From: Terana coerulea
Taxonomy: Eukaryota > Basidiomycota > Agaricomycetes > Polyporales > Phanerochaetaceae
Assembly (NCBI GenBank): GCA_024811115.1
Contig: JAKOGH010000051.1
Coordinates: forward strand, 434,001 to 498,000
Reading direction: 5' to 3'
Length of the DNA: 64,000 bases
The notes under the pieces were generated by a model, which was not told where the DNA came from, made no database searches, and was given only the letters and a program-made list of their open reading frames with translations. Position 1 is the stretch's first letter; every line of letters begins with the position of its first letter. The position numbers and the translations under genes were made by a program. Positions 25,405 through 61,477 of the stretch are shown piece after piece.

Positions 25405-25531
25405 ATGGACTCCGTACACCGTCATCCCTCTCGCTGAGCCCATTGTCGCTACTCAGCTCGACATTCCCCACGATGAGGAGGGCGGAGGCGGCGGTCCCAC
25501 GGCTGGGGGCGGCAGCTGCGTTATTGCTTGA
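25405..25531 (+). pseudogene. Farnesylated mating-pheromone precursor (no. 5), frame off by one base near its start
   Basis: Lipopeptide pheromone precursors of basidiomycetes are short, carry an internal processing site and end in a CAAX box for farnesylation. The ATG at 25405 opens MDS and then runs into a stop. One base over, the frame reads YTVIPLAEPIVATQLDI, then PHDEE, a run of Gly, and GGGSCVIA followed by TGA (25529-25531). The whole is 127 bases, one more than a multiple of three, so a gain of one base (or loss of two) after codon 3 restores about 41 residues. A TATA box precedes it. The composition matches three intact precursors in this window. Either the sequence carries an error or the gene is recently dead; the well-kept tail favours an error. 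Confidence 0.75.
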
Positions 25532-26383
25532 GCATGTTCGCGCTTTGGTAAGTTGCAATAGCGTGCTCGCATACCCAGCCGCACGTGCTGACTATGCCGC
25601 AGCGCAACGGCCTTCGACAATTCGCTGCTGTTAAGGCTTCGAGATCGCATGCTCCGGCATTTTTTTCGTTCCTGCTGGAAGATTGCTTTACTTTTGGATT
25701 CTTGGTGTTGAAGATTTTGCCGCTTGGATAGACCTTGCGTGGATTGGGGATGGATGTCAGGGGGCATTTGTATTATTATTTGACTGCGCAGAGAATCATA
25801 CTACACCTGCCTCACTTAACTCTGTGCTGCTGTCGTGCTGCTGGACCTTCCGCCTCCGAGGCTGTCCGAGGTTGCTGTGAGCGTGAGAAAGTTCCACTCG
25901 TGCTGCTCAGGGATGTATTTAGCCGCCCGACACCTCTCTTCCGCTGGCAACACGCTGCTCCCTTGCATGAATCGTAGGTTGCCGTCACTTGCATACAAAC
26001 AACACTCCTAAACCTGTGGATACTTCAAGGTATGAACAACTCGCTCGCCGCAACCGCTGTGTAGCCCTACAACCTACTCGGGTTGCTCTACTCGAAGCCG
26101 GCCCTTTCATGCGAGCCGGAGATGGCTGAAACTCAGTGGAAGCTCGAGCTCGCAGCCAACCTTGTTCCAAACTCGACCCAAATGCCGCCCTTCTATCTGC
26201 AAGGAAGTGAACAAAGGCCTCATTCCGCTATCAGGCACACCCCGGCGGCCACGCGGATCACATACCGAGGCCATTTTAGCCTCGTGTGAACCACACACGG
26301 CGCGTACATGATGGCTTTATAGTGCGGAGGTATCCCTCACCGACTGGCCACAACTTGAGATCTACATCGACCATCACGGAATC
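25532..26383. other. Intergenic, pheromone precursor 5 to WSC gene
   Basis: About 850 bases with no recognised gene on either strand. Confidence 0.45.
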
Positions 26384-28617
26384 ATGGATTCCCCTCTGCT
26401 CAAGCTTGCCTTGACACTCTTGCTACTTATTCAGTTCCAGGCGGCGTTGTCGGCGACTTCCAACTACGTTATATTCGGTGGCACACAGCCTGTGGTGCGC
26501 ACGCGTATTGACCCCATAGTCAACAATGGCACGGTATGTTTCCTCTCACCTGGGATGTTGGCCTAATAGTTCAATATTGATGTCCAGGTTGGCACACATG
26601 TGCATGATGTGTTTGGCGGAAGCGGGTTTTCCGCCACCTACGACTATAATCAACAAATCCAGAGCAAATGCACCACCCTGGAAATAACGGAAGACTTCAG
26701 TAACTACTGGGTGGTATGTGTGCTGTTCCTCGAATACGACGAATCACTTTTGGCTAATGTGGCTCCAGCCATCGATGTACTATGTGGATCCCACGAATGG
26801 ATCGTTCACGTTGATGAGTTCGTATCTTCCTCAGCCCATCGGCGTCGGAGTGGCTGATTTATAACATAGAGAGCACTATGAACATCTACTACCTTCTCCG
26901 CCCTGGTCCAAACAATGACCAGCTACACCCTTTCCCTTCGGGCCTTAGGGTATGTTCAAACGCTTGTTCAGCAGTTCTGAATTCCTAATCGTTTTTGCAG
27001 ATGCTCGCTGGTAGTCAGACTCGTGGCACGTATAATGCCTCTAGCCCTGAAGATCAAGCCGTGAGCTATATGTGCTTGGGTTGGTGTCTCGATCGGTTCC
27101 ATGACGGCTCTACTCATCGCCTGCGTCAGATTACGCCAACAACCACGCTAATGACCCCGACTGGGCCGAGCGTCCGAATTTTTTCGACCATCAGTGCCCA
27201 GATGGTATGCGTGCTCAAGTGTTCTTTCCCTCTTGCTGGGACGGTCAGAATCTCGACAGCGACGACCACAAATCTCACATGTCTTATCCTATCGGGGCCT
27301 ACAATGACGGCTACTGCCCGGATTCGCATCCCGTGCATCTCATATCGCTCTTCTACGAGCTTTTTGCCCCGACAGGAGACTTCCCTTACAACGGCCCCGG
27401 TACATGGTCGTTCTCGAACGGAGACACCAACGGCTACCGGTACCATGGGGATTTCGTCATGGGCTGGAAGGACCCCAGTCTGCTGCAGCAGTTCATCGAC
27501 AACTGCCCGAACGCGCAGGGCAACGTCGCAGACTGCCCCGCGCTGGCCGCCGCGATGGATACGAAAGCCGCGTCGGCGTGCGAGTTCGACGGCCCGGTGG
27601 TCGACGAGGATATTGGGTTGAATGACCCCATCGCGAAGCTGCCCGGATGCAACCTTCCGTGGAACGGGAACGGGACGCAGCCGACCTGCAGCTCCGCGGA
27701 AGAGGTTCTAGCTTTGTCTCTGGCATCCAGCCTCTGCCCGAAGGTTGGACGGACCTGGGCTGCATCGCCGAGCCCGGCGGCGCAGCCGGGCGTGCGCTCA
27801 CCAACGCGTCGTTCACTGGCACCAATATGACCAAGGCGGTGTGCAGCGCTATGTGCGCCAACATGACCATGCCATACGCTGGTGTTGAGTATGGGAATGT
27901 GCGCCGTTTTCCTTCTGTGGGTACGCAGATGCTGAATGCACATCCAGCAATGCTACTGCGGTGAAGCACTCATGAACGGCGCAACTACAACGACCGTCCC
28001 TTCCGAACAGTGTAATATACGATGCGCAGGCAACAGTGAGTGGTCATAATCTGCTGCATCCCCAAAAGCTCCTGACAATTGGTTTTAGGTCTTGAGATAT
28101 GCGGTGGAGCGAACCTTCTGGAGCTGCTACACAACCCAAGTCCCGCTCCAGTAACACTCCCTCCATTGACCCCCTCTGACGGCACCTCGAGCCCTGGCAA
28201 CTCATCCTCTGGCCCACCTACCGCCTCCGGATGGGTCGCAGCCGGTTGCAGCCGAGATGGCTCGAGCCGCGCTCTGACCGGCTATGCTTTTGCTGCAGAT
28301 AACATGACGCCAATACTATGCCAAGATGCATGCACTGCGAAGGGGTTTAGCATCGCAGGTACAGAATATGGCTCCGAGTGCTACTGTATGTTTCCTTTGG
28401 CCCCCGATCGCAAACAACCGCTGACATACTGTTGTGTGCAGGTGGTAACGCTTTCACGAACAACCTTGGAGGCTTGATCTCGGACGGAAGTTGTTCCAAG
28501 ACGTGCTCAGGGGACTCTTCGTCCACATGCGGCGGCCCTTGGGCTCTTAGCGTGTTCAGGCGGCCCAGTAATTCTGCTATGCGGAGGCATGTTCGCCACA
28601 ATCGTGGATATTTCTGA
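26384..28617 (+). CDS. Secreted DUF1996 protein with C-terminal WSC domains; one-base frame break
   Basis: A signal peptide (MDSPLLKLALTLLLLIQFQA) leads to a DUF1996 domain: HVHDVFGGSGF, NIYYLLRPGPNNDQLHPFPSG, MLAGS, FFDHQCPDGMRAQVFFPSCWDG, HKSHMSYP and DGYCPDSHPVHLISLFYE. Two Cys-rich WSC carbohydrate-binding modules follow, the first around DLGCIAEPGGAAGRALTN to QCYCGEALMNG and the second from AAGCSRDGSSRALTGYAF to STCGGPWALSVFRR. Fungal proteins of this build are extracellular or wall-associated and bind glucans; catalytic activity is not established. The frame breaks near 27704: CSSAEE must shift to GSSFVSGIQPLPEGW, explained by one missing G in the GAGG run. All other exons join well, so the gene is probably intact in the organism. 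It is on the + strand upstream of the F-box gene. Confidence 0.87.
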
Positions 28618-29244
28618 GGACGAAACAGGCGGTGGCATGGCTCGCCGTTTAAATCATCAATTGTATTATTAGAGGTGTTTCATGGCATGCTAAGCAGTGC
28701 TAGCTATGCAACTAGCTAGAAGCAATCGAGAAGAATTTAACTGGAATGTATGTTGTAAGGCTTCAGGCGACTGCACTCAAGTCCAACTCAAGTCTGCAAA
28801 TTCGGGGGTTTGACTGTGACTATAGACTGTCACACTCAGGTAGCATCAGGGTAGCACGCCTGAGCCTAACCCGACTCAGAGCGTGAGAGTCTGATGCGCC
28901 GACATTTGATGCGCCCCGGAACGCTCGCTCTGTCTAATTCCTACCATCTTCTTCCTCCTTGATTATGACCGGCAATACTCACACACCATGGTAGTCTAGA
29001 GTTACCCAAGAGAACAAGAAAGCGAATCTTTCGCTGACCCTACTCTTTGTGGTGTCGCCGTCCTAAATGCCTGCAGAGTGCAACAAGGCTGTAACGACAG
29101 ACGACGTCGCTAAAGCTAGCTAGTATGAACTGAGCTCGTTACGCTTTCACACAGTACAACTCTCTTTGAGACGACCACGGTGAGTAGTACAGCTCGTGTA
29201 CGAGGAATGTCTGCTTACTGACGCGTAGGCTCAGCCAGGCTAGT
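28618..29244. other. Intergenic, WSC gene to F-box gene 1
   Basis: About 630 bases with nothing recognised. A CTAGCTATGCAACTAGCTAG hairpin-like repeat lies near 28700-28719. Confidence 0.45.
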
Positions 29245-31105
29245 ATGCATCGTTGTCTTCTGGTCGAAGAGATTCAAGACGAGATATTCGAGCATGTGTT
29301 GCATAGCCCATCTACCGAGGTCGGCAGGAAGAGCGTTGCGAGTCTCACGATCGTCTGTCACACGTTCCATAAAAGTGCGATGAATGCGCTGTGGAGTGAG
29401 CTAGACAGCATCGCACCTCTTCTGAAGTGTATGCCTTCAAGGTTGTGGACGGAGGTTTGGTCACAGGGCTCGGACCGAGAGAGCTGGTCCTGGTACACGG
29501 CACTGTTGGTGAGATATTCTATCCTTCATCTCTTCTACGACCCATCCATTTTGACGCGTCTGTCCTGCGCGCAGAAATGCGAGGAGAAACCGGGGCTGCA
29601 AGACTGGGAAGGGTTCATGAAGCATGCCCATCGCGTTAGAAGCCTGAATATAGAGCCCAAGAGCGAACGGCACCATGTCGATATCTATGCGGGGAGGTAT
29701 ACCGTATCCTCCCAAGTCGTCGATATGCCGTTCCTACGGGCATTTAGCCGCTTTATCATCCACCTACCTTTATGGAATCGGCCTGTGTTTCCACGTCTTC
29801 GGCGACTACAGTGCAGCGCATATGACCACGGAGACTCTGTTGTGGTATTTCGATGCATATTGGACGTTATTGGCCCTCTTTTGCAACAACTAGACATTAT
29901 CTACGATCGGCTGCCAACATCCAGCAGTTGCCTCTACCCTTCTCGGATGCTGGTTTCTGTCCTCCTTTCCCATACACCGAAGAAGTGCCCGTTGCTGAAG
30001 CAACTGCAGTATCACCCAAAGGGCTTTTACGGTCGGAGCACTGTTTCCTTGGGCCTCCGTGCTCCCCTTGGCAAGCTCCTGTTATCGGCGGCGAACCTCA
30101 CTACCCTTCGAATGGACGATGTGACTTTGAGCCGTGCAGACGTTGTACGCCTGGCAAGCTACCAAACCTCACCTATCTGCAAACAACGATGAATATCAAC
30201 ACAGTGCCGTCACTAGCAGCCGCAGAGCAGCCATCCTTCGGCGCACTTCGTACCTTAACTATGAAAGTGGACATGCTGACCACGTGCGTGCAACTACTAC
30301 GGACTGCATTCCGAGACCGTCACCTGGATGACCTGGACATCAGCGTACCCTTATGGACCGAAGACAGCGAACTTGTAGCGTGTTTTCGCGCGATCGCTTT
30401 GGTCTCATCTCTCCAGGTGCTTCAGCTCGAAGTCTCGCTGCTGGACGCAAACCACGCCGATGTTCACCTCGTAATCCCTTTCCACGCCGTGAAAATCTTG
30501 TTCGCTCTCAAAAACCTATGCACCCTGCACATTACCCCGTTCTTGTTCACCAGCGTGACCATGGAGTTTGTCGGTCTGGACATTGTGGCCATGGGGAACG
30601 CAAGGCCCGAACTCCTCAGTCTTCGGCTGCAAACAGTGAGCAATCGTCGCAGGCTGTATCCACGCTCATGCCTCATGAGCATGAACATTCTGTTGATGTT
30701 TCGAGCATGTTTCCCCACCTCCTCGACCTCCACTTGACGCTCGACGGCAGTCACGATGACAAGGCACCTCTCGGGAGAATGCGCTCTTGCTCGCGTGTCA
30801 ATCATCCACTGCACACGCTCGGCACCGGGAACTGCATCTGGCTGCCCAAGGTTGCGCATCCCCGCACGAAGGCACTGTTCGTCGGCAGCGTGTTTCCCAA
30901 CCTGCGAACGATCGAGTGCACGGAGTGCGGGCACGCGTGGAGGAAAGTGAGGAGCATACATGCCACCATGTTCAAGCTTAGCCCGCCACCCTGTCCTATC
31001 CGCTGCCCGGCTAGAAAGTCCTCGCTAGGAAGTCTTCGCACGCTAGCCACCACTGCAGCTTCTGGTTTGCGCAGGATGGTATCGTCTCCAGCTCTACACC
31101 AGTGA
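29245..31105 (+). CDS. F-box-like domain protein, copy 1; two one-base frame breaks
   Basis: The start MHRCLLVEEIQDEIFEHVL opens an F-box-like helix set, followed by a conserved SMALL-type signature (VCHTFHKSAMNALWSELDS and LLKCMPSRLW). One intron lies at about 29508-29575. The long C-terminal region has LRR-like hydrophobic spacing (LKQLQYHPKGF, LTTLRMDDVTLS, LQVLQLEVSLLD). Such proteins usually pair with Skp1 in SCF ubiquitin ligases, but the substrate is unknown. Two faults occur. At 30156 RLA should be followed by KLPNLTYLQ (one A missing). At 30713-30716 ACFP should be followed by HLLDLHLTLDG (one C missing). Both fit homopolymer undercalling, because the damaged paralog at 44820-46669 confirms the expected reading. 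The stop ends at 31105. Confidence 0.78.
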
Positions 31106-33038
31106 ACGCGCTCAAACCAAACGCCTCGAACGTTGCTTTCCTATGATTCTTTTCAAAGAGCTACTAATATTTACTCGTAATTTTGTGTGTATTGACTAAA
31201 AATGACAGTATGCTTCATTTTTGTTTCTTACCCGCTGCATGCACTGGGACTTGCACATTTATTCAAGTTTATCGGAATTTGTGCCGCCGGGCGTCTATAC
31301 CTGTGCAATGGCCGAATTAGGCAGGTAAGATGGTTTGGAATGTGAAGAGTTTGCGTCGGCGTGACCTTGTTGATTGTCAGTAAACAGACTGCCAGCCGCC
31401 GCACAGTATAAATACCCCGCTCACCTCGTCCTATCTCCTCACCAGCTTCTCCTCTCTCCCTCTCTTCGCTCCCTTCCCCGGGCCTGTTCAGGTGTGCGGC
31501 GGGAGGACCTTCCGGCACTGTGTCTCTGCGGGTAGCACCTCGTCGCCTCTCCCGGTCGTCTGCGTTCATGGGTCCACCAACACAATACAAGTGCCAGTGG
31601 TGGCATGGATGCGCCAAGGGCCTTGGTGCCTGCAAACCTCCGTGACCTTGTGTACCCACCGCAGGCCTTCGGCTTGAGGGCGACCCGTGTGTCCATGGAC
31701 CTCCTTTGCCCGCGTCCTTCCACCAGTCTGTGCACCCCAGGCTCCTCCGACAATTCAGCTCTCTCCCTCCCCCTTCCAACGGCTGCGATGTATGGCAGGT
31801 ATATGTAGCTCCATGGCACAGGTGCAGGTTGTGACAACCCCTCGTCGTCCGGACGTGCGAAACCATACTTGGTCTGGTGACTGGCCTCAGTCGAGTATGG
31901 CGGCCTATGGCCATACGTTTTCCGGGCGAGCAGCGACTTGACCCCTGCACCTCCCTATGTGGCGCACTACCACGCTGCGCATTGCGTTTAGGCCGCCTTT
32001 CGACTCTCGCAGGGATATGATAAAACTTAAAGGTACGTCCCGAGGAAGGGCGGACATTCTTCTGATGTCCGTCCTGGTGTGGACCTTTTCGTGGTCCTCG
32101 GGATAAGTACCTCCTCGGAGGGAAACCAACTCACACCTAAATTTTCTCCTTCTCTTTCTTCTACGACCATGACTGGGATCTGCGATATGTATTCTACTCT
32201 AGTTCTTGCTACAATAAATTTATGCCATCATGTCAAGCTTCACATAAATATCAAACATAAGCATGCACTACCTATAGCTTCGACCAAAACCACCCATTTC
32301 ATGGAAGCTTCAACCAACTTGAAAGCCATAGTATGTATGGGTGCATACCCACTTTAAGCCTGTCATGCAGCTATGCGAGGCGGCCTCAAAGCCATTCCGG
32401 GTCTTGGGATTATAGATCTCCGTCTTTACTACCGACTTGCAATAGATAATCAGCGCGCTATCAATCTGCGAGTGAAGAAATGGCATCTGGCTTTGTGGGC
32501 GGGAACACTGTACCCAAGAAATATCCGTAGCACGATAACATGTGGCACTTTGATGCGCCATTACTGCATTCGGTCTGTAGCGCGCGCCGACATATGCGGT
32601 CTTTGTAGCAGAGCCAGAACATGGATATCAGGAAATTCCTGCCATTAATCCTACAGATGCGTGTAGCACAAGTAACAGATGATAATTGTGACAGAGCCTG
32701 TAGGCAGAGCGGGGTAGTAGTAGAGATGGCGCAAATCCTGCTATCATACTAGAGCGTGAGTGTACGAGCATTCAAAAGAGTTCAACGAGACGTACATTGC
32801 CCCTTAATGGTATGAACCCTCATATTGGCGTGCTTGCAGTTCAGATACGAAAAAGGAATATGGGACAAGGCCAAAGGTTCGGAGTTCGCCGATGGCCAAT
32901 GTTGAAAAACGCGCCACTCAGGCCACGTCTTCCCTCACCCTAACCATCACCCTCGTTTGCACCGGCTTGCCATCCACAATCGACGAAACCCCCTAACCCT
33001 CTCCCCCGAAAGAAAGTAATCCATCCTTGATTGCAAGA
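31106..33038. other. Long intergenic, F-box gene 1 to disordered-protein gene
   Basis: About 1.9 kb without a recognised protein gene. It holds a strong plus-strand TATAAATA at 31407 followed by a pyrimidine-rich leader. Open frames after it (for example 31605-31808) have no recognisable domain and do not end in a CAAX box. Confidence 0.45.
31407..31414 (+). promoter_or_regulatory. Orphan TATA box with pyrimidine-rich downstream tract
   Basis: TATAAATA is followed by a C/T-rich stretch (about 31415-31480), the layout of a strong fungal core promoter, yet no recognised gene follows. It could drive a non-coding RNA or a short unrecognised gene. Confidence 0.35.
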
Positions 33039-34611: not shown

Positions 34612-35399
34612 TAGACTTTATGCGGGAGAGAACAAAGGACTGTCTGTGCTTGTATTTCAGCGTTACCGACGAGAACACTCGAATAATAAATCTCTCACCC
34701 GAGAGCTTGCGCTGACAAATAGACGGCCGGTAGTCCTTGTGAATTTACGGCGAAGCGAAAGCGAGTTCCCCATCGACTTCGACGACCATGCCCAAGGTGC
34801 CCTCTGTCTCCCTCCTCAGACCGCATGTAACATCAGCTAACTGGACCAAAATATCGATTTCGCCACTATCTCGCCCAGAGACAAAGAACCTTGTGCTGGC
34901 GACGATATCCGGCGGTAGGGTCCACAGGATGGCGCGAGATGCCACTGGCAGTGGGCAGGACAGTTACCTGTCCCCGCCGTCGTAGGCCTCGCCAAAAATC
35001 ATAATAGAGGCAGCGCGTCGCTCTCTGCTGAACCGCAGCAAGATTCTCTGTGGTCTTTGCGCATACTGACTGGATTTTGTCTTTCTTGAATGGTGGAGGG
35101 AGGTAATCAAGCTGGCGCCTGCTTTGGCGACATGCAAAGCTCAGAAGACCGGCCCTAAATCCGCGTTTACACTACACTTGGTGACTTGGCACCCGCTCAG
35201 TACCGTCACGACCGTGGCTGCATAAACAGTTTCACAAGCGATGTATTGACTAGATGCAGCAATCTATGATACAACAACGGAACCCGAGGTCCAAGTCCGA
35301 CGGAGTAATAGTACAAGTAAGATATATGGTTACAGACTGTCAGTTTAGGCTGGGTGTTCAAAGCAGAGTCCAGTGCCAAGTCGCAAAGTCCAAAGATTT
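34612..35399. other. Convergent intergenic
   Basis: About 790 bases between two convergent genes, with no feature recognised. Confidence 0.45.
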
Positions 35400-42730: not shown

Positions 42731-43687
42731 ACACTTGCGCATATATTGTAAATTATCTCCAGTATACAGTATCGTCATCGTCATGGTCGCGCTCTAATGT
42801 ACGAACTGCCTATTCCTTCTCGCAGTCCATCTCGCAATCCAGCGGAAGCCCCACAGGCAATATGAGAACAAGACACCGAGAGCATATCTGTTCAGCGTTG
42901 CGACAAGCTTCAGTTAGCGGACGACGATTAATCCGACTGCAGTCCCTAGTCACCCTGCGATTACCGGCTTGTCTCGAACGGCCGTCGTCGATGATTACTT
43001 CAATGCGCTGCCATTGGTGTCGAGCCTGAGGTCTGAGGTCTGAGGCTTCAAGGAGACTTGAGGGATGTGACAGACGCAAGACAAGCGAACGCGACGATTC
43101 ACGAGCTGCCGTTCAGCCCTAGTATGTGCTGTTTTATGCAACAGCAGCTCCAGTCGTTCATAGAGTATGCAGCGTGGTTAAGTTTGCAGTGCAATCGGGT
43201 GCGACACTCAACCTCAGCTGAATATGAGTTTCGCGTTTATCTGATGTTCAAAACTATTGATTGAGGACACAGCCAACGAAATAACCCGTCCCTCAACTGC
43301 CTTGTAGCGTGCGATTAGCGTGATGGCCACGGTGGTACTCTAGAGTCCTTGTCCGGTCAATATCCTACATCTCCTCCGTCTACCGCTCCTCCCAAAAATC
43401 CTACACCAATCCTACACGCCGGCGGGCATTAACGTTGATAGTCGAATATGCGAATGTGAGTGGTGCGGAATGGACGTCGCACATGGTAATCCAAAAATAC
43501 AGCTGGGAGCCGGGGTGGCATCCCAAACAAATGTGGGGGTGGTCCGCGCGGACGAGAACGTAGAAGGTCGAAGGTCGTAAAATCATGTCAGGGACGTGCT
43601 GTCGCCCTGTGTGGTCTGTATCAGCGCTCGAAGCTGTCAGGCGGAGGAACGGGACCATACCTCCGTAAATCGTGTCGTGTGCAGCTC
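42731..43687. other. Intergenic, EI24-like gene to pheromone precursor 1
   Basis: Nearly 1 kb without a recognised gene. A three-copy 7-base tandem repeat (CTGAGGT type) sits at 43026-43046. Confidence 0.45.
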
Positions 43688-43810
43688 TCATGCGATAACG
43701 CACGAGCCGCCAGTAGCGGTGCCCCCGCTCCCAGACTCCTCGTTCATGGGGATGTCCTGCTCGGGGACGGAGGCGGGGATGGGAGAGGCGAGAGCGAGGA
43801 AGGCGTCCAT
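43688..43810 (-). CDS. Farnesylated mating-pheromone precursor (no. 1)
   Basis: An intact 40-residue frame starts MDAFLALASPIPASVP, continues EQDIPMNEESGSGG and ends GGSCVIA, followed by TGA. MD at the start, Ala/Pro-rich leader, acidic NEE region and a C-terminal CAAX box (CVIA) are the build of Agaricomycete lipopeptide pheromone precursors. The Cys should be farnesylated, the last three residues removed and the end carboxymethylated. Trimming after the acidic doublet would leave a Gly/Ser/Thr-rich peptide. A TATA box lies about 100 bases upstream. Gene finders usually miss frames this short. Its partner would be a STE3-type receptor, not visible in this window. Confidence 0.88.
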   Translation of the reverse strand: MDAFLALASPIPASVPEQDIPMNEESGSGGTATGGSCVIA

Positions 43811-43910: not shown

Positions 43911-43920
43911 ATTTATACTG
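43911..43920 (-). promoter_or_regulatory. TATA box of pheromone precursor 1
   Basis: The minus strand reads CAGTATAAAT about 100 bases upstream of the ATG at 43810. Confidence 0.65.
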
Positions 43921-44819
43921 TTGCAGCCTAAGGCGCAGGGCTACGCGTAAAAGGAGGGCGCGCTGGGGCCCGCCGCGCACAAAACAATAAGATGGGGCCA
44001 TCCGATGATGATTCCAGAGTTCTGCCCTCCACGCCGACGCGGAACTTGAGTCAATGTTGCGGAAATTGCGGTGCACGTGCGGCTCGTTATTGTGTTTGCG
44101 CAGACGAAAGTGTTTGGCTGATGCAAGGTTTTAGGTTCGTAAGAACGAGTCCACGGTAGATTGACCTCGTTTCAACCTCGTTTCAACCTGTGAATCTACA
44201 GGTTATGTCGCCATATGCTGTGTTCACCTTGAAATATCTCCTTAGCTCGTGACCATAGAGCCATGTCAGAACTTCTACTATCCGCTGTTACGATTATCGA
44301 TGTAGTCGACTATGCGACACGTCGGCCACAAAGTCTTACGCACCACTAGGCAATGGCTTTACACATAGGGCACAAGCTCAAATGTCCCTCCAGACTAGCC
44401 TGAGTTCTGAGACCCCAAATTTCATACATCATCTGCGCGCGACATAACAAAAGAAGAGGGCGGCTACGGACCTTCCATGGGCGTTCTATTAGGCTACTGT
44501 TTAGCTTCTTCCGGCCACGCCACATCTGCGACAGCGCGGACCGATGGGTGATTGAACCACTTGACGTGTGCGTCTCACCCACAAGACAAAAAGACACCAT
44601 AGGCGCTGGGTTTGTGGCGCGCTCGCCCAGCTCCACGCCGTCCGAGCCGCCGCAGCACTCTTTTCATCCAGCGGATTTCGGACCGTATAGCCAGGGCGCA
44701 GTATTTTGAGAGTGAACACTGGAAATAGCTGCGATATACTGATGACATGGCGACTGAAACATGATTGAGATCTGTACACACGAAGACCAGGGGATGGAAG
44801 TACGAGCGGGCGTATAACC
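43921..44819. other. Intergenic, pheromone precursor 1 to F-box copy 2
   Basis: No gene was recognised. An 11-base unit (ACCTCGTTTCA) is directly repeated at 44164-44185. Confidence 0.45.
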
Positions 44820-47232: not shown

Positions 47233-48807
47233 ATGCTGAATAAGCCACGGCAAGCCTCCAGATATGCAGGCCATACGGCTGACCCGACGTATATTCTACG
47301 TCTCGGCCCATACCGATTTTACGAGCTCGAGAAATGGAACAGGCCGTGGTGGTATGTGGCGTTGTACAGTGGCTCACCGTATCTGCTAGGATTACTCGCT
47401 GCCAAACTATGGTCGAACATAGCTTCTCTGCCAGGTGCTCGGACACTCATGACCCCCGTCTTCACACTACTGTCTGTACAGTTCCTCTTCGTCGCTCCTT
47501 TCGCAGCCATCTGTGTGGTGTATCCTCCAGTACCATTCCGGAATCTTCCCGCCGCCCTATATCACGATCTCTTCCACCACGCCCTGAACGTCCTCACGCC
47601 ACATAGCCAACTCTGCAGACGCATACAGAGGGCATGCCCAACCTGGGAGGTATACGATGAGGAAGAAGCTAGGAACCCATCTATGAGATTCACCATCTGG
47701 ATCCTTAGGCTCCTGACCCGCTTCCTTCCTGAGGACAAGATTGGATCTATACTGATTCAACTCAGCAAGCACGACCTCTTCCTGCCCTCGCCGATCATGA
47801 AGCTCATCACTGACATCGTCCTCGACCGGCTGAAGCTACACGACCGTACCAACATATCTTGGCGGTCCGCGCCGCTGATCGACATCCAATCCCAGCTTGC
47901 GGCATTGTCGCTAAGCGCTACCCTCCCGCTCATATACATGGCGTTGGAGGTTATCGAGAAGGAGTGGGGTGGTCAGACGTCCCTATCATCCTCTTTTCCG
48001 GAGGACTCTGCATCTGTGGAAGCCATCTGCTGCATCGTGGAGCTCCTCCGCGTTCATGGAGATTGGATGCATGTTGGAGAAGCTCTCGGGAAGACGTTGT
48101 CCGTGACTACGTACAAGCATCTTGCCACTTTGTTGAAATCCTGTTACGGTGGCGTCGACTTCCACGCGGAGGAGAATACTGTCGGATTTATCATCGCACG
48201 GCTGGCTGCGCTTGTGCATCTCCAACATGTGCACCACGGCGACGCTGAGAAGGCGAACGTGGGGCTCTCCATACGTGAGTTCTCCATGACTCCTATCTAC
48301 ACAAGCAGTACTCAGAAAGCCTCATGTATAGCCTTGGCCTACAACATACTGCACGCTGGCCCCAGCATAGAAGCTGCCTTCCAAAGAGCTGCCGATGCCA
48401 ACACTAGTCTTAAAGTCCGAACATTACATCCTGTCGCATCCGCCTTTGCCATGATCTCACTGGCTGCCCGCATACGTGCGCATCACACGCTCTCAGAAGA
48501 CGACCCGCTGTCCTTCCAGGACAGCTCCCACCTCGCATTTTTAACTGATGTGGTGCTTCACTCTCACACCACGAACATTGCGCGACACGAATGTGCAATG
48601 CTGGGCATCAGAGCCTCGTATCTCCAGGATAGTGTTGGGGCAATGTCTGCGGAGGACAATTCGGTACGACGGACGATGAAGCTTCAGGTCGCCATGTGCG
48701 GCATGTTCGTGCGCGACTTGTCCAGGCTCGCGAACTGTCGGGAATGTAACGTTTGCACACGAATGCTTCTAAAACTGCAGATATGTGAGGCGAGGCTTTC
48801 TAGGTAA
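47233..48807 (+). CDS. Intronless hypothetical protein with N-terminal membrane segments
   Basis: I do not recognise this family. The first in-frame ATG, at 47233, opens MLNKPRQASRYAGH; the open frame extends a little upstream without an ATG. The product is about 524 residues. Two hydrophobic stretches lie near the start (SGSPYLLGLLAAKLW and VFTLLSVQFLFVAPFAAICV). The remainder is a long alpha-helical region with repeated Leu/Ala patterns (for example LAALSLSATLPLIYMALEVI), which could be ARM/HEAT-like. The absence of introns in 1.6 kb is exceptional here. Such membrane-plus-helical-repeat proteins are often expanded in Agaricomycetes without known function. Confidence 0.65.
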   Translation: MLNKPRQASRYAGHTADPTYILRLGPYRFYELEKWNRPWWYVALYSGSPYLLGLLAAKLWSNIASLPGARTLMTPVFTLLSVQFLFVAPFAAICVVYPPVPFRNLPAALYHDLFHHALNVLTPHSQLCRRIQRACPTWEVYDEEEARNPSMRFTIWILRLLTRFLPEDKIGSILIQLSKHDLFLPSPIMKLITDIVLDRLKLHDRTNISWRSAPLIDIQSQLAALSLSATLPLIYMALEVIEKEWGGQTSLSSSFPEDSASVEAICCIVELLRVHGDWMHVGEALGKTLSVTTYKHLATLLKSCYGGVDFHAEENTVGFIIARLAALVHLQHVHHGDAEKANVGLSIREFSMTPIYTSSTQKASCIALAYNILHAGPSIEAAFQRAADANTSLKVRTLHPVASAFAMISLAARIRAHHTLSEDDPLSFQDSSHLAFLTDVVLHSHTTNIARHECAMLGIRASYLQDSVGAMSAEDNSVRRTMKLQVAMCGMFVRDLSRLANCRECNVCTRMLLKLQICEARLSR

Positions 48808-49710: not shown

Positions 49711-49789
49711 GCCGCCGTCGCTCTACAATGAACATACATTTGTGTTGGTGAGTATTTCGACCTCCATCATGATCTGAACTCACCGTTTC

Positions 49790-51409: not shown

Positions 51410-51682
51410 ATCGTAAGAGCGGAGAGACTCTGCGCATCCCTCGCCGAAATCATCAAAATCAGGATTCAGCGACGACGGCAACCTGGCCAGCAAGCATTAT
51501 GGTGGTGGCACGCTTGATATCATCCACAAGGGATCCGCGGCATCCATAATGGTTGCCAAATTTGGACTTGGTGACAGAGTTGTAGATGTTGATGGCGGGG
51601 ACGTTGAGCTTGCCGTCGCAACAGAACGTCTTGCAGACATGGCGGATACTGGTGGTGGACTCTTCAGTAACGCGAATATTGT
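51410..51682 (-). pseudogene. Fragment of an S-adenosylhomocysteine hydrolase gene
   Basis: Adenosylhomocysteinase splits S-adenosylhomocysteine in the methyl cycle. A minus-strand stretch reads [53 protein letters not shown] and [10 protein letters not shown]. It then breaks with a stop and a shift and resumes as DDFGEGCAESLRSY. These match the central NAD-binding part of the enzyme, where an intact copy has VNDSVTKSKFDN and a GxGxxGKGCA-type motif. The Rossmann glycines are lost here, and only about 90 of some 430 residues remain. An intron acceptor AG just before the first codon is preserved, so the fragment came from genomic DNA. No further exons were found on either side. Confidence 0.82.
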
Positions 51683-52456
51683 CTGAATAGAGTTAGATGT
51701 ACAGTATGTCACTATTGTCGTGGGGGTGGCTTGGGATAGTGCGCGGCTTTCTCGACGCTCCTAGAGGCACAACGCTGCGCTTGATGCATGTATGTACGTC
51801 TGCCACCTTGCTATATCATAGTTCACCTGCCATAAATCGTGACCGCCACCTCGAACGGGATATTGCACTTGCATGTCCGCCTTTCCTAATCGTGAAGCCG
51901 TTAGCGGACTATGCGCCGGGTGGCACGTTGTATTCTCCCGACCAATCGCTGCCGTGGCGGAAAGCTCAGGCAATCACGAAGGCTACACCATCCAAAGAGC
52001 CAAAGGAACGTGGCCGATTTCGCAAGATCCCGACGACCCGCAATTGTGTGCAGGGCGCCTGACCAATGGCGCCGTCCGGCCAAATGGGCGCATACAATAA
52101 GCCAGCAGGCGGGGTCGCAATGGATATTCCTTCCGTGGTTTCGAAGTTCGCCTGCGGGTACCGAGTGTCGACATCGCCTTTCGGAAGGAACTCTGTAGGC
52201 CTCATTTCCGTTGTACAAAGTTCGGCACACGCGCCACTTGAGCTTCGTAGCGGGGAGCTTCTTTTGTATAGGGCAGCGGTTTGCGCAGCCAGCGCGCACG
52301 GATATCCTGTATAAAAGAAGGCGTGCGGTGGATGAAAGTGTGCACAGACCACACATTGCATTGCGCGACAGCTCGACAGGATCGGCGGCGCACTTACCCA
52401 CGCACACTTTCGTCTCTGGCTTGACGCCTTCCGACTCTTTGCATACCCGCCCGGAC
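51683..52456. other. Intergenic, adenosylhomocysteinase fragment to pheromone precursor 4
   Basis: I looked for further adenosylhomocysteinase exons on the minus strand and saw none. The right end holds the precursor promoter. Confidence 0.45.
52310..52317 (+). promoter_or_regulatory. TATA box of pheromone precursor 4
   Basis: TATAAAAG lies about 140 bases upstream of the ATG at 52457. Confidence 0.6.
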
Positions 52457-52574
52457 ATGGACGAGTTCCTGATTATTGCTACTCCCGGTGCCTGCAGAGG
52501 AGACCGAGGTGCCGCAGGACGCGGAGGGCCACAAGAGTCACACGAGCACCTTCTTCACGTGCGTTATCGCCTGA
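52457..52574 (+). pseudogene. Farnesylated mating-pheromone precursor (no. 4), frame off by one base
   Basis: The ATG at 52457 reads MDEFLIIATP. One base over, the frame continues VPAEETEVPQDAEGH, then KSHTSTFFTCVIA and TGA at 52572-52574. The 118 bases are one more than a multiple of three, so removing one base at the CCCGG near 52494-52498 would give 38 residues plus stop. MD start, Pro/Glu-rich middle and CVIA box identify a pheromone precursor. Unlike the other four, its region before the Cys is not Gly/Ser-rich (HTSTFFTC). It may therefore specify a different pheromone. A TATA box is present. Error and real decay cannot be told apart here. Confidence 0.75.
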
Positions 52575-53809
52575 GCCACGCTTCATCCTATTACACCAGT
52601 CATAATCTGCACGGTAAGTTCACCGTATACCAGAAAAGTTCAATAAGACTCACCTAGTATCTGTAGAACACCACCCTGCGATGGCCAGAGGCACCACAGC
52701 ATTCCTTTGCATACCCACGACCGAACCATTCGTTCTCGATTCCGCATATAATCATCACTCGTTACCGCATCGATAGACCAAATGTATTTCCACATCCACC
52801 TTGGACATTTCGGACAGTTGTAGGACAGTATACCCGTTGAACATGTTATACCGTAGTGGGAGAAGAAGGAGAGATGTACCATAGTGGAATTAATCGCGTT
52901 GTAAATTACATCTACTGAAATCAGCACCGTCAGTCGGAGCGTATCCTACCATAGCCAAGTTTACTCACAAGATAAATTGCACTGTGGGCACTACTGAAAA
53001 GGGCCGCCTCCATAGACTGATGTCCACCCAGCCCTCCGGTGACCAGCCTGCTCTCTTCCCTTGGCTGAATCGTGTTAGTGAGATATCATACGCACAAGCG
53101 TGTGCATTACCAGGGAGCCTGCGGTTTCCGTCGGCATTCGCGGCGAAGGGTCTGCTTCCTCTACCCATGCATATGCTCACGTTGCAAACCAATGTGCCTC
53201 TGCAGCGAGCAGAGTGTGGGTTGGGCTCGGCTATTGTACGAGTGAGCATCCGGATTAACATGAGGAGAGCGTTGGCAAAGATGCATAGTCGGGGGATATA
53301 TCCTGCGTTTCCTCTCACAGGGAGGGGAGAAGATGTCGAAGGATGTTGGAGGTGATCAAAGCACAGTACAAGGATACGGGAGCGCTCAGTCAGTAGTGTT
53401 CTTACCTGTAGTTTTCGCACGCTTACAACACAAGCTGACGCTTCCAAACTTGGTCCCTTACTTACATAACTTACGACTTTCTACACACCCCTTGACTTTC
53501 CTCACTGCCTCCGTGCCAAGCGACTGCTACGGACAACGTCGAACGCGTCACGACGACGGCGCGGGGCCCGTACGAAGCATCCATCAAACGGCGCAGCTAG
53601 GATCCTGACAGCAGCGCTGCCAATCCAGCATTCCGGGGCTGTGCCGCAGCCTCGCTAACGAGGCGCTACAGGTCCGCAGTCAGGATAACCATGAGGACCA
53701 AGGCGTACATATACCGGAGGCGATAGGGGGTTCTCGTCCTCGTCGTCCTCCTCCCAACACTCATCTCCACCCCTCGTTGTCGCGGCCGAAGCTACCCTCC
53801 CTCGCCACC
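52575..53809. other. Intergenic, pheromone precursor 4 to conserved hypothetical gene
   Basis: Minus-strand open frames at 52640-52927 and 52965-53447 are joined by an intron-like stretch but show no known domain. No STE3-type receptor motifs were found in any frame. Confidence 0.4.
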
Positions 53810-55064: not shown

Positions 55065-55330
55065 CAAGCCCGTCATTCTCCGTCACTTGCCTTCCTGCTT
55101 GTCTATCTTCAAGGAGCTTATCCGGATATCTTAAGGGACTGTTATACCACTGTACAATGCATTTCTTATGTTCTGTCTCCATAGTAAGTTGTCTAGTATA
55201 ATCTAATGCACATCGCCTCGTTACTCGGAAACAACTGCGGTTGCCTAGATGTTGTCTTAGACGTTGTCCAGTTGCAGTCTGTAACCGCCGCGGTCAGAAG
55301 GCCAGCGACCCTGGATGGTATAAGCCTCCG

Positions 55331-57593
55331 ATGACCCCGGACAGGGACCCAACAACCGGTCAACCTGCCGAAAATTCAGGCGTGATCTCTTCACAGGGCC
55401 TGGCGCACGAACCCGCACACAAAACCCCACCGACGGACCCACGCTCGGCACCCACTCTGCCGCACACCATGAAAGGCGGTCTGCCATGCCTGCCCGGCCT
55501 GTTCAACATCGGCCGCAGCGGACGCAAACCAGAGAGATCAGCACCAGCCAGTCCGAACAAAGAAGATGGCGATCATGACGGTAGTAGTACCGCCTCCGTG
55601 TCGTCAACGGGAACGCCAGTGAGTGGCCAGCTTCTTGCGAGTGAGTCGGATGAACTGGCGGCTGACTCCGCACTTTAGCCTATGTATGCCACCCGTGGAG
55701 GCTCCTGTGGCTTCTGTGGATCGTTTGCAGAGACCAAGCAGGTCGCACCAACCGTAAGAAGCGGCAAGCCTCCATCATACTCGTCAGATGGGTCCCCGTG
55801 GGGCAGTATTTTCGACCCTGAGGTGCTCGAGACCATGGAGGCAGAGATTGAGAGCCACAGCGCCGACCTGCGGAAACTCAGTCTGGACATCTGGGGTATG
55901 TATCTGACTGTGTACTGTGATGGCCAACCGCACTCACCACTTCCTTTACTGCAGACCACCCCGAGGTCGGGTACAAAGAACAGTAAGTCCGCACCCTCCG
56001 CACCTCCGCGCGAGCGCTGACGACAGTTCTCATCCTGCGGCAGCTATGCGCACAACACCCTCACTGCGTTCCTCGCCGCTCGCGGGTTCACGGTCACGAA
56101 GGGCTACCTCGGGATCGCCACCGCGTGGCGCGCGGAGTGCGTGCGCGGGCAGGGCGGGCGAGCCATCGGGCTGCAGTCCGAGATGGACGCGCTGCCCGGG
56201 ATCGGGCACGCGTGCGGGCACAACCTCATTGCCATCTCCGGCGTGGCCGTTGCGCTGGGCCTGAAGGCAGCGTTGGAGAAGCACGATATCAGCGGGAAGA
56301 TCATCCTCCTGGGCACACCAGGTGGGCAACGTCAGGTATCTCTCGAGAGGCTTAGTTACTGAACATTTTCCGGCAGCTGAAGAACATGGCGGCGGTAAGA
56401 TCAAGCTGCTTGAGGAGGGCGGCTACAAAGAGATGGACGTGTGCATCATGTAGGTCTCATCATGCATGCATACAAGGACCCTTTCTTACTTCCGGCCGTT
56501 GGCCATACAGGGCACATCCCAGCCCCGGAGTTCCGAACGGCGCAGTCGTGCAGCCGTGGACAGCCTTGCAGAGCATAGACGTGGAGTACTTCGGTCACAG
56601 GTAGCCCCCTTTCCACTGTCGCAGGTAACAGCGCAACTAATGTCGCAAGTGCCCACGCCGGATACGCGCCGTGGGAAGCCCAGAACGCCCTGGACGCAGC
56701 GTTCATGGCATACTCTGGCATCTCCGTCTTGCGCCAGCAGTTGAAGCCGTCGGTCCGCGTCCACGGCATCGTGACCGGAAAGGATTGGGAACCAAACGGC
56801 ACGTCGCACAGTACATCATGCGCTGGAAACCACCGTGCTGACATTCATGCTCATAGTGATACCCGATTACGCGAAGATGAAGTGGGCGGTACGTGCGCCG
56901 TCGTGGACCGAACTGGAGGCGCTGCGCGACAAGGTGGTGAAGTGCTTTGAGGCAGCAGCCATGGCTACCTCGACGAAGTGCAAGATCGATTTTGGTGTAG
57001 GATACAAGGATTGTAGAGAGAATGACGCTCTCGGTGAGTGTTTCTCTAGACTATGCTGGACTCTACATTCTGACATAAATGGCGTAGCGGAAGAGTTTGT
57101 CCGCATTGGGAGAATAGGTATAACCTCGTCGCGTCTACATCGGACGAAGTGCTGCAAGCGTCCACGGACTTTGTGAGTGTTGCCATCGCTTCCTGAACGC
57201 ATACAACTGACTCTCTGCTCAGGGCGACATATCCTACGGTGACGAAGCTCGCAATCTCACTTCGGTTCCGTTCTAACTTAGCCCTTTCCAGTTCTACCGT
57301 CCATACAGCCCGTATTCGCGATCCCGACCTCCAAGAACGGCAGCAACCACACCCCGCAATTCACACAGTCCGCACGCGCGGAAGAGGCGCACGCCGCGAC
57401 CATCGCGACGTCGAAAGCCCTCGCCGCAACCGCCCTGCGCATACTGCTTGACGACGGGTTCTACGCAAAGGTGCGCTCAGTTTGTGCAGCCTACTCGATC
57501 TCGCAGCGTTTAACCCAAATCGTACCCTCTTCCACCCCTCTTGGGCAGGTTCGCACTGCGTATGAGTTACAATGCAAGCCGCTGGCATCCTGA
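55331..57593 (+). CDS. Peptidase M20 / PM20D2-like amidohydrolase; one-base frame break
   Basis: Zinc-type amidohydrolase, close to PM20D2, which cleaves dipeptide-like amides. After a long, probably disordered N-terminal extension (start uncertain; 55331 or 55468) the domain begins IESHSADLRKLSLDIWDHPE. It shows LQSEMDALPGIGHACGHN (metal site), PAEEHGGGKIKLLEEGG, HPSPGVPNGAVVQPW, DVEYFGHSAHAGYAPWEAQN and VIPDYAKMKWAVRAP. The C-terminal part reads FTQSARAEEAHAATIATSKA and ends KPLAS. Most introns are standard; the one at about 56795-56854 seems to use a GC donor. The frame breaks at about 57113: RIGR must be followed by NRYNLVASTSDE, explained by one missing A. The catalytic motifs are complete, so it should be active. 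Confidence 0.85.
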
Positions 57594-58934
57594 ATGCGCC
57601 CCGAATGCGCCTCGGATGGCGCTTTTGCGTTTATGCGGCTTGTGGCTGACCGTGCCTGCGGTGTGTGAAGCCACCATGTGTCCTTGTCCATTACTTCTCC
57701 ATACGCGCTGGCAGGGGTGGGACCAGGAGCATACAGCATAAATGGACGCGATTAATGTTCTTACCGGCACTTGCTGCTGAGTCTCTGTCATCTATGATCT
57801 ACTCGTACGCTGCGTCGCTCTCGTTGATTTCCTGCAATAAATACTATCTGCTTGCTCGCTCGAAGTTTGTCGCTTTACGGTATGATTTGATCAGTACGTG
57901 GTAAATTTGAAGGATATCATCGGGGTAACGAAGTGTTGTAACGTTTCTCTGACGTGTGCATAAGCGTGGGAACTCTAGAGGTAAGCAGGGCACCAACTTC
58001 TCGGCGCTCCTTCCTCCTTTGCCCTCCACGACGTCGACCTGGATCTGAGGCCTGCCTGGGCCCAAAACATGCATCTTACGAACCCAGCCCGTCAACTGGT
58101 TGTTCTTACTGTGTTTAATGCACAGCCAGCAAGCGCGGCCAGTTCGCAGGCTGGCTTCAACTTTGGTACATGACTGAGATAAGTCTTCTTGGCCAGGTGG
58201 GTTCCGGGTGGTGCCATTGCACGGTGATGTTGTGGATGGTCATATCTTCTATGTCGTTAAGCTGATCATTCCTTCAACGAAATCTCAGTATAAGCTGAAG
58301 CCACTGGTATATATTGCGCATCTTTACTCTGGGTCGACCTGTCCGGTCACGGTTCGGACGTAATTGACAGGGAGCTATGTTAGGTGTTCGAATCTTTCGC
58401 TCAAGTCACAGCACGTCTCGCAGGCGGTCATAGAGCCGTTGAAGCTATCTTGCGACAAGCAAGGGGCATTTTGCCTTCTGTCGTTAATGAACAGCGCATC
58501 CACTGCGTACCACTCGCTTGACGTGTGGTCAACGTAGGTCCCGAATAAAATGTCCAGATTCCCAAAGCTGAAATGCGTGTGCGTATGATACAGTGCAGTT
58601 CCACTCCTATCGTACACTGCGCTCTCCCTCTTCCCCCCGTTCCTCTCCCTCAACTATCCTCCGGCCCAAATGTTCTACAAAGTGTACAGCTGGTGAATGA
58701 TATGTGGCGATAAATTACGCGTGTGGTGGTGGTATCGCTCGCGATAGTCGTGGAAAAATCAAATGGTCCCAGCGGATTCGGAAACGAAGCGGGTCGCCGC
58801 GGGTGGTCGAAATATGAATAAAAACAGGCCTCTGGCCTAGCAGCTCCTGTCGACTGATGTGAGTATTGAACGAGCGGGGAATTGGCTATGGTTATTCACC
58901 TTTCGGAGCGCAGCTAAAGGAAAGGAGACAGTGC
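57594..58934. other. Intergenic, M20 gene to pheromone precursor 3
   Basis: About 1.3 kb with no recognised gene. The right end (58710-58815) shares short blocks with the 3' flank of precursor 2, for example ATAAATTACGCG. Confidence 0.45.
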
Positions 58935-59057
58935 TCATGCAATGATGCAGGATCCGCCGGACGCCCTGCCACTGGTCTGGCTCTCCTCGTCAACGGGGAT
59001 TTCGGGCTGGTCGACAGCAACGACGGAAGCCAGAGAGAGCGAGGCGAAGCAGTCCAT
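58935..59057 (-). CDS. Farnesylated mating-pheromone precursor (no. 3)
   Basis: An intact 40-residue frame: MDCFASLSLASVVAVDQ, then PEIPVDEESQTSGRASG, ending GGSCIIA and TGA. The build is the same as precursors 1 and 2, with the CAAX box CIIA, which should be farnesylated. The block SGRASGGSC is identical to precursor 2, 2.4 kb away on the same strand, so the two are recent duplicates that may yield near-identical or cross-reacting peptides. Processing after the DEE would leave a Ser/Gly-rich peptide. A TATA-like box is 110 bases upstream. Confidence 0.88.
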   Translation of the reverse strand: MDCFASLSLASVVAVDQPEIPVDEESQTSGRASGGSCIIA

Positions 59058-61360
59058 TGTTGGTAGAAGGTAAGGTCGGGGGTGACGCTGGAGTACGAGG
59101 TGTCCAGGTGAAGAGGAGGAGGTGCGCTATTGCTCTGCTGTCTCTCTCTCCACTGCTCTCCTCCCTTTTATGCAGATCACTGCGCCCACAGCTGTCACCG
59201 TGCGCGGCCACACATTCTTGTGGAGACAAAAGCGGCTGCCTGGCAACGGCGGCGGGCGTGCGGGTTGCAAGCGCGGCGGGTGAGTGCCGCTCCGTGCAGT
59301 TGTCAGGCAAGAATAGCAAAGGCGAGGGAGACGACGACCCTTACTGCACGGAAGCCAGGCACGACTGCCACCGGCGACGCGCGCATCGCACGGCGCGTGC
59401 ACCCCTTATTGTGTGCGCTGCGCGGCACATTGACGGGGTAGCGGCGCGCGTGGGCCGCGAGGTGCGCACACAATTGCACTGTTGGCACGCTGGACACGCG
59501 CCCGCAGGCTGTTCCTGGCCATTTTGACTGCCTTCCCTCGCCGGAAGTTTCTCATTGTCAAGATCGGACTCGATCACCCGGCCATTGGACGGATGCAAAT
59601 CCTCTTGCCACGCTTTGCCTCCCAAGGTGAAGATGTCATCGAGAGTATTACAATAAGGGGTTCTAGACCCTCCCGTGGAAGCTGTGCCCCAATCTTGCGC
59701 TCGAACTCTCAAGTAATGACCCGGAGGTGAGTTCATCCTCTTCATGTTCGTGAATCTTATCCTCAAATGTATGGGTTTGCAGAGCATTTTGTGCCATTTG
59801 TATCGAGCCAAGCCACGTTTTCGAATATCTGACCGGGTTGACGCTTTCACGCTTGCCAAGCGCCCATCTTATTGTTTGCACCGAATCACGGTCTCTTTAG
59901 AAGACAGCATTCCTAAGCCCAACTGTGGGTTTCTATATCGAAGTCACGCCGAACAAAGCAGGTGCTTCTCAGCCGAGCTTAGACCCGCGCCCAGACGCAG
60001 ACGGCCACTCGGCGCTTGGAGACACGGTGCGCGCGACATTCATTCGTCAATGAGCGGCGTTGAGAAAAGTAAAGGAATAGAATGTTGGTACTGTGGCGAC
60101 TTTCAACATTGTTCTGCTGCGCGGCTTCGATGTGCATGACTTTCGGGGTTTCTGTAACCACTGAATGTTGTGGCTTAGTATCAACATCTACGCCAAATCT
60201 ACGCAGTACTGACTTGGTACTGACTGCCAATGTGCTGATGAACATGATCAGAACTCGAGGCAACTCGCAGTTGTACAGCGGTTGTGATATAGAGTGCATT
60301 ACATACTTAAACTTGCGTCTGACCGATCTTGTCCGTGAGATGGAAAGTGTAGTCGGCCCTACGCGTTATTTGATGCTTGTACTTACTTAAATAGGAAAGG
60401 CGCATCACCTTGTGGCGTCCCGCCCGATCAAAGAGGTAGGCGTCGTCAATGTGCGATGCGCACTGGCAGTGGCCGCACCGTGAGATAACGACGGGTTTGG
60501 TTCACGATAATCGATAATGTCCTGCCGCCGTGCGCCGTCCAGCTAGCAATATTTGAGACTCTGCGAGCACCAGATATTTTACATAGTAAGCAATGCTCGA
60601 ACATTGTGAGGCACCAGCGGGCCCACCACTCAGGCGCGTCACCAAGTAGCGGTGTTACTTATATCGAGTTTTGTACCAACAAATCCGTTACATGGTCGCT
60701 CGAATATCTTGCGCGCGGTCATGGTTTTACGCTGAACCTTTCCACAGGGGTTATGGCCCGCACGTTCCCAATCAATTTTAGCACATGACAAGGTTGACGC
60801 CCTCAAGCTTCCCAAAAGTTCTCATTAGAAGTCGTTCATGGGAGAACCCTTATTGTGTTACATATCCTCATGGACTCGATGGAAGCCTACTTTGCTTCTC
60901 ATCTTAGAGACTGCTCTCTCGTTCGCTGCGTCAGGGAACAAAGCCCCACTAGGCAAAGCCGCAATCTCGTAGGCAAGCTCAGAGTCCGCGTCGACTAGCC
61001 CTCAGACAGGCAGGCGCATCCAAAGCATAGGAATGTCAATCATAATCATGGGCGTAATGTCATAGGCGATGTATAGGTGTACAAATGCGCGATGGTCCAA
61101 TTAATCCTCCTCATCCACTATATTCCTACAACAATTGTTCCCAAGCCCAGCCCATCTAAACCCTGTTGTACATGTCGAAGAACGAAGCGATGCGGTATAA
61201 ATTACGCGCGGATGGTCGAAAAGAGTTGAGCGGCGCCCTGAACGAAGAGCGGACGCCGTCGTGGTCATGAACAAAGACCTCTGGTGAGGCTGTTGAAGTG
61301 TGTATGAGCGTCCGGCTCAGAGAAAATCAAACAGTGACAACGTACCGATGTTTTCGTTAA
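59058..61360. other. Long intergenic between pheromone precursors 3 and 2
   Basis: About 2.3 kb. Minus-strand reading at 59525-59670 gives a protein-like stretch (TLDDIFTLGGKAWQEDLHP) inside a longer open frame at 59341-59859, without a domain I can name. No receptor gene was found. Confidence 0.4.
59165..59172 (-). promoter_or_regulatory. TATA-like box of pheromone precursor 3
   Basis: The minus strand reads CATAAAAG, about 110 bases upstream of the ATG at 59057. Confidence 0.55.
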
Positions 61361-61477
61361 TCATGCGATGACGCAGGAACCACCGCTGGCCCTGCCGCTG
61401 CTGCCGCTCTCCTCATCATGAGGGATTTGTGGTTGCTCGGAAGCGATGGGAGACGCGAGGGTGAAGAAGGAGTCCAT
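61361..61477 (-). CDS. Farnesylated mating-pheromone precursor (no. 2)
   Basis: An intact 38-residue frame: MDSFFTLASPIASEQP, then QIPHDEESGSSGRAS, ending GGSCVIA and TGA at 61361-61363. It has the same features as precursor 1, with LASPI in both leaders and the CVIA box. The acidic DEE is the likely processing point. After the stop, the strand shows a GTACGTT donor-like site, so an intron in the 3' untranslated part is possible. The promoter has a TATATAA box 120 bases upstream. Confidence 0.88.
   Translation of the reverse strand: MDSFFTLASPIASEQPQIPHDEESGSSGRASGGSCVIA

Follow-up and report, generated by a model that had tools for sequence, protein, structure and literature searches.

The closest known class to the genes described here is that of the non-mating-type pheromone-like precursors of Agaricus (PMC8305134) and Pycnoporus cinnabarinus (PMC4101180), so that the kind as such is already known. 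In Agaricus, four glycine-rich pheromone-like precursors are described, and the transcripts of at least three carry an intron in the 3' untranslated region (3'-UTR; PMC8305134). For Flammulina, further pheromones were expected away from the receptors and were thought unlikely to act in mating type (PMC3140503). Genes this small are often missed in annotation: in Rhizopogon, the JGI gene models lacked nearly all precursor genes, and for about half of the genes a pattern script was the only means of detection (PMC5473757). Here we describe five short loci on contig JAKOGH010000051.1 (C42; 543,966 bases) of the Terana coerulea assembly GCA_024811115.1 (48.4 Mb, 896 contigs), all within a stretch of 64,000 nucleotides (C42:434001-498000, hereafter the window). 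They probably form a cluster of paralogues that encode farnesylated, pheromone-like peptides of the non-mating-type class.

Structure of the precursor copies

The copies are named g1 to g5, and their positions are those of the window.

25405 to 25531, plus strand: g1, precursor copy with the ATG and CVIA frames one base apart; possibly a pseudogene or an assembly error
43688 to 43810, minus strand: g2, intact precursor copy of 40 amino acids with a CVIA end; open frame; PF08015 E-value 0.0058
52457 to 52574, plus strand: g3, diverged precursor-like copy with the ATG and CVIA frames one base apart
58935 to 59057, minus strand: g4, intact precursor copy of 40 amino acids with a CIIA end; open frame; PF08015 E-value 0.0043
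61361 to 61477, minus strand: g5, intact precursor copy of 38 amino acids with a CVIA end; open frame; PF08015 E-value 0.037

A pattern search of the assembly located C[VI]IA tails followed by TGA at all five loci, which span 36 kb on both strands, and ATGGA was present upstream of every tail. The CaaX box stood directly before the stop codon in all five tails; in three (g2, g4 and g5, with 40, 40 and 38 amino acids) it closed a single open frame running from the ATG. These intact copies began with MD-F (MDAF, MDCF and MDSF), and the ATG frames of g3 and g1 with MDEF and MDSV, respectively. In the alignment, an EE pair was followed by 12, 12, 12 and 13 residues including the Cys in g2, g4, g5 and g1, and was absent in g3. 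The predicted mature peptide was Gly/Ser-rich, and the four recognisable ones (g1, g2, g4 and g5) were nearly uniform.

The ATG frame of g1 reached a stop after 10 codons, and its tail frame, PLAEPIVATQLDIPHDEEGGGGGPTAGGGSCVIA, was offset by one base and lacked an ATG. In g3, the ATG frame continued beyond the tail without sharing its reading frame; the frame of the tail was again offset by one base and without an ATG. Both offsets had the same sense, the ATG part and the tail part being one base out of register. Neither gene had a second copy in the assembly at an E-value of 0.001. The two copies may be pseudogenes, or the offsets may be assembly errors. Introns were judged unlikely as an explanation. 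For g1, five GT-AG pairs of 43–67 nucleotides shifted the frame suitably and all deleted coding sequence, the 43-nucleotide candidate (from GTACAC) removing the part that aligned with the other copies; for g3, the only two pairs (73 and 82 nucleotides) deleted most of the coding part. Programmed frameshifting was set aside for both genes, as it had no supporting evidence. The original prediction had described five frames running from MD to CVIA or CIIA and a TGA. The tails were in place at all five loci and the frames intact at three, and the description failed for g1 and g3, so that it was real, overstated and partly confirmed.

PF08015 (fungal mating-type pheromone) was the sole Pfam family matched by four of the five copies, under its cut-off (E-values 0.0043–0.18, the g1 tail at 0.18), in agreement with the predicted build of Agaricomycete lipopeptide pheromone precursors. 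No PF08015 match was obtained for g3.

Homology, counts and selection

With g5 as the query against the assembly, g4 (E-value 3.2e-9), g2 (6.6e-8) and g1 (6.9e-6) were recovered and nothing else; the g2 query recovered the same set and one chance match. Neither query recovered g3, whose tail found itself alone in the assembly. The notion of a family of five therefore held as homology for g1, g2, g4 and g5, whereas g3 was linked to them through its architecture only and is probably a diverged member. No further member was found in the 48.4-Mb assembly. A candidate sixth copy on contig C763 (E-value 0.03) was rejected, having an internal stop and no CaaX end when the DNA was read.

Frames from MD or ME to C[VIM]IA with 20–60 amino acids occurred three times in the window and never in 200 dinucleotide shuffles of it. 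The assembly contained 46 C[VIM]IA tails, 30 followed by TGA and 16 by TAA or TAG. Five of the 30 lay inside the 36-kb span; at the density of the remaining 25, about 0.02 would be expected there. Only four of the 46 closed an MD/ME frame of 20–80 amino acids: g2, g4, g5 and a frame nested in a longer open frame of 417 codons (L069). The flanks C42:424001-434000, 498001-508000 and 538001-543966 contained no acidic CaaX frame resembling the copies; beyond these and the window, C42 was covered by pattern and protein searches only. Unrelated acidic CaaX frames, none with an MD start, were seen in C42:424001-434000 (one, CVAL) and at window positions 47757 (CLLS) and 11889 (CLIR).

Differences between the intact copies were mostly synonymous, with pairwise proportions of nonsynonymous (pN) and synonymous (pS) differences of 0.21–0.29 and 0.53–0.62, all counts here resting on 31–38 codons. 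Between the intact copies and the g1 tail frame, pN was 0.25–0.36 and pS 0.60–0.79. When the 1.5-kb flanks were compared with blastn (E-value 0.01), the coding part alone aligned, and only between g2 and g5 and between g4 and g5; sequence that g4 and g5 have in common as neighbours was set aside. Since pN lay under pS and the flanks aligned over the coding part only, the copies other than g3 look as though they have been kept under purifying selection after old duplications.

The mating locus and other receptor loci

Searching the assembly for STE3-like receptors, as had been proposed, gave matches on contigs C530, C529, C577, C526 and C231, and none on the 544-kb contig C42. Five STE3 loci, grouped by hand from exon-wise matches, lay within the first 18.5 kb of C530 (11-166, 7759-8876, 12430-13420, 14624-15669 and 17901-18528). 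Among them were four mutually unlike precursors ending in CIIS, CVVA, CTIA and CTIA. One of these scored over the PF08015 cut-off, one under it (E-value 0.022, about as weak as the window copies) and two had no match. The precursor at C530:2932-3099 (55 amino acids, CIIS end) was among those without any Pfam match; it had a weaker TATAA at −145 and ATTGTT upstream, with ACAAAA only at −384, and its stop codon was followed by GT-AG pairs. Intron scoring covered the other three, whose intron-like stretches were equalled by 7, 2 and 11% of random ones; their TATA-like boxes started at −170, −132 and −103. Judged by sequence, the C530 cluster is the canonical pheromone/receptor locus of this genome. 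The locus probably continues on another contig, as the first of its STE3 matches is incomplete and abuts the start of C530.

The window is thus not itself a pheromone/receptor locus on the available sequence. The prediction that it was part of, or beside, such a locus was not supported, given the lack of an STE3 match on C42 and the canonical cluster on C530; the reading that fits is its alternative, in which the precursors are additional ones away from that locus, although a linkage of C42 to C530 across a contig gap is still conceivable. Markers of mating-type regions also pointed elsewhere, in profile searches that scored the best candidates alone and in which absence from C42 is therefore not proof. 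Linkage to mating type A was rejected, the 13 Peptidase_M3 (MIP-type) matches lying on C244, C140, C553 and C706 and none on C42, as was a B-locus border, with three PBD (CLA4-like) matches on C107 and C528 and none on C42. Nor did an ICMT gene adjoin the cluster (25 matches, none on C42).

The 25 six-frame ICMT matches were distributed over 17 contigs, an apparent expansion of the methyltransferase family that finishes farnesylated proteins; many ICMT genes are reported for Rhizopogon too (PMC5473757). The STE3-like loci on C529, C577, C526 and C231 are candidate receptors for the window peptides. The 1.5-kb stretches to either side of the matches on C577, C526 and C231 and the first 10 kb of C529 showed no precursors.

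Promoters and intron-like stretches

Each window gene had a TATA-like box, as predicted, starting 104–147 bases before the ATG, and an ACAAAA or TTTTGT element further upstream, 158–195 bases before the ATG (offsets below are relative to the ATG).

25301 to 25306, plus strand: g1 TATA box, TATAAA, −104
43912 to 43917, minus strand: g2 TATA box, TATAAA, −107
52310 to 52315, plus strand: g3 TATA box, TATAAA, −147
59167 to 59172, minus strand: g4 TATA-like box, CATAAA, −115
61597 to 61602, minus strand: g5 TATA box, TATATA, −125
25212 to 25233, plus strand: g1, two ACAAAA elements, −193 and −177
43979 to 43984, minus strand: g2 TTTTGT element, −174
52262 to 52267, plus strand: g3 TTTTGT element, −195
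59226 to 59231, minus strand: g4 TTTTGT element, −174
61630 to 61635, minus strand: g5 TTTTGT element, −158

A TATA-like box at 90–150 bases was found for 4.2% of random positions. The ACAAAA element, present in all five window genes, occurred in that place in none of the four C530 precursors, one of which had it within 400 bases (at −384). Conversely, ATTGTT or AACAAT was present within 400 bases of all four C530 precursors and of one window gene (g2). The combination of element, TATA-like box and ATGGA selected exactly the five loci in the 64 kb, g3 included; two other TATA sites bearing ACAAAA (54531 and 60663) had no such frame. The background of ACAAAA in the window was 2.9% per 110 bases. 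It was found at most 110 bases upstream of 8 of 88 TATA-like sites in the window, six of the eight belonging to the five genes (one counted twice). By arithmetic, the chance of finding it in all five is about 2e-8 to 2e-4, before allowing for the choice among hexamers; among 500 random sets of five stretches, none had a hexamer common to all five and 48 had one common to four. The opposition of ACAAAA and ATTGTT hints at separate control of the window and mating-locus precursors.

Downstream of the stop codon, all five copies had an intron-like stretch with GT, branch site and AG, scored with hand-set splice-signal weights.

25548 to 25602, plus strand: g1 putative 3'-UTR intron, 55 nucleotides (GTAAGT, CTGAC, CAG); score reached by 0.5% of random stretches
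43607 to 43660, minus strand: g2 putative 3'-UTR intron, 45 (scored) or 54 nucleotides (GTATGG); 3% of random stretches for the 45-nucleotide version
52614 to 52666, plus strand: g3 putative 3'-UTR intron, 53 nucleotides (GTAAGT); 3% of random stretches
58847 to 58899, minus strand: g4 putative 3'-UTR intron, 53 nucleotides (GTGAAT), weak; 12% of random stretches; missed by a stricter donor pattern
61290 to 61345, minus strand: g5 putative 3'-UTR intron, 56 nucleotides (GTACGT); 7% of random stretches

Among the 30 window frames scanned against Pfam, matches over the cut-off were obtained for HECT, a serine carboxypeptidase end, Sec1, DUF1996 and ribosomal protein L5; LRR_14 and DUF6540 matched under their cut-offs. 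C42 ends 48.5 kb past g5, the last copy.

Interpretation

A route from gene to signal can be proposed from the known lipopeptide pheromone pathway. A TATA promoter would drive a short mRNA whose intron lies beyond the stop codon, and the precursor of 38–40 amino acids would be farnesylated at the Cys of CVIA or CIIA. The last three residues would then be removed and the end carboxymethylated, and an N-terminal cut after the acidic EE pair would release a lipopeptide rich in Gly and Ser and 12 residues long (13 in the case of g1), predicted for g5 as SGSSGRASGGSC. After export, the peptide would signal via an STE3-type receptor encoded elsewhere. Because the four recognisable peptides resemble one another so closely, many mating specificities are unlikely to be encoded among them; most likely their action does not depend on mating type and goes through STE3-like receptors from other loci or involves no dedicated receptor. 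More speculatively, the five peptides, four of them nearly alike, might constitute a separately regulated lipopeptide signal with its own ACAAA-type element and an STE3-like receptor outside the mating locus, serving self-recognition or development and not mate choice. A compact cluster with a common promoter element unlike that of the mating-locus precursors would offer both a removable unit and a testable regulator.

Several results weigh against assigning the cluster to non-mating-type pheromone-like genes. Two of the five copies have offset frames, and for the g3 tail the contrast with the others is much weaker (pN 0.41–0.49, pS 0.60–0.74). None of the five reaches the curated PF08015 cut-off of 22 bits (best score 18.5), and a six-frame PF08015 search of the assembly was blank, although it likewise failed to return a C530 precursor with a score of 28.3 bits. 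Searching a protein collection gave no relatives in other species, a result made uninformative by control queries (a C530 precursor and a 541-codon window frame) that were equally blank. The ACAAAA element was identified post hoc from these same promoters. Its frequency upstream of TATA-like sites was higher on C530 (4/23 and 5/27), with 0/3 and 0/17 in two C42 flanks, and GAACAA or TTGTTC is present in three C530 genes and in g1. As the C530 precursors also carry a TATA-like box and an intron-like stretch, these are marks of pheromone genes in general and not of this class.

Four other explanations were weighed. The copies could be remnants of earlier mating pheromones, a family in decay with two of five broken, which would be compatible with the preferred reading. 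The offsets in g1 and g3, neither of which has a second copy in the assembly, and the strong divergence of g3 fit this, but the one-base offsets may equally be assembly errors, three intact copies have a low pN, and pN of the g1 tail is well below pS; on the whole we consider decay unlikely. It is improbable that the genes determine mating type as the precursors of a second B sublocus, poor in receptors and linked to C530 across an assembly gap. Such a gap could be accommodated by the truncated receptor match at the C530 start, beyond which that locus probably extends to another contig, and by the end of C42 so soon after g5 in an assembly of many contigs. However, C42 has no STE3 match, the four recognisable predicted peptides vary little among themselves, in contrast to the four C530 precursors, and none of the latter has ACAAAA in the position seen in the window genes.

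It is very improbable that the products are small farnesylated peptides other than pheromones, for example intracellular membrane-anchored ones. The CaaX end is the only feature strictly kept in all five copies and the PF08015 scores are under the cut-off, as such an origin would allow, yet the MD-F start, the acidic pair before a Gly/Ser-rich stretch, the PF08015 likeness and the intron-like stretch together are the combination of pheromone-like precursors. Chance CaaX frames, finally, are a negligible prospect. CaaX tails are short and the assembly has 41 further C[VIM]IA tails, but the shuffles gave none of the three observed frames, homology connects three other copies to g5 (E-values 3e-9 to 7e-6), and the promoter rule selects these five and no others. 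Sequence homology excludes chance for g1, g2, g4 and g5, and for g3 it is the architecture alone that argues against it. A cluster of pheromone-like genes of the non-mating-type kind is thus preferred.

Comparison with known systems

A five-copy cluster within 36 kb, or a promoter element separating such a cluster from the mating-locus precursors, was not met in the literature searched, which was covered in part and allows no claim of absence. The only relevant match to searches with peptide strings was the Agaricus paper, for its own consensus string. The likeness to that system (PMC8305134) comprises short precursors (38–40 amino acids here, 44–54 in Agaricus), an MD-F start, a charged pair, a CaaX end, mutually similar copies and a Gly-rich predicted mature peptide (12–13 residues here, about 11–13 in Agaricus). 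The intron after the stop is seen in transcripts in Agaricus and as an intron-like stretch in the DNA here. The window copies lie away from detected receptors, and those of Agaricus away from the PR-orthologous locus. The arrangement differs, with five copies in 36 kb on both strands here, whereas in Agaricus three copies flank a centromere and the fourth is on a different chromosome. Here, the mature part ends in GGSC instead of GGGSGNGAYC or GGGSGNNAYC, two copies have offset frames unlike in the cited systems, and the common ACAAAA element has no counterpart mentioned in the available parts of the Agaricus and Pycnoporus cinnabarinus papers (PMC8305134, PMC4101180).

An ACAAA core is also found near pheromone genes elsewhere among the fungi. 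The Ustilaginales (smuts), a distant basidiomycete group, provide the parallel. Their pheromone genes carry pheromone response elements, ACAAAGGGA, to which the HMG protein Prf1 binds (PMC3248468); the last part of the element differs from that of the window genes. By analogy, an HMG factor might bind at the ACAAAA of the window genes.

The nearest comparison is with the C530 precursors of the same genome. The two groups are alike in the MD start (three of the four on C530), the acidic stretch, the CaaX end, the TATA-like box and the intron-like stretch. The window copies differ in not lying beside detected receptors, in being far more uniform, in their CVIA or CIIA ends (CIIS, CVVA, CTIA and CTIA on C530) and in their upstream hexamer. 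The genome is thus split between four distinct precursors among receptors and a family of similar ones elsewhere.

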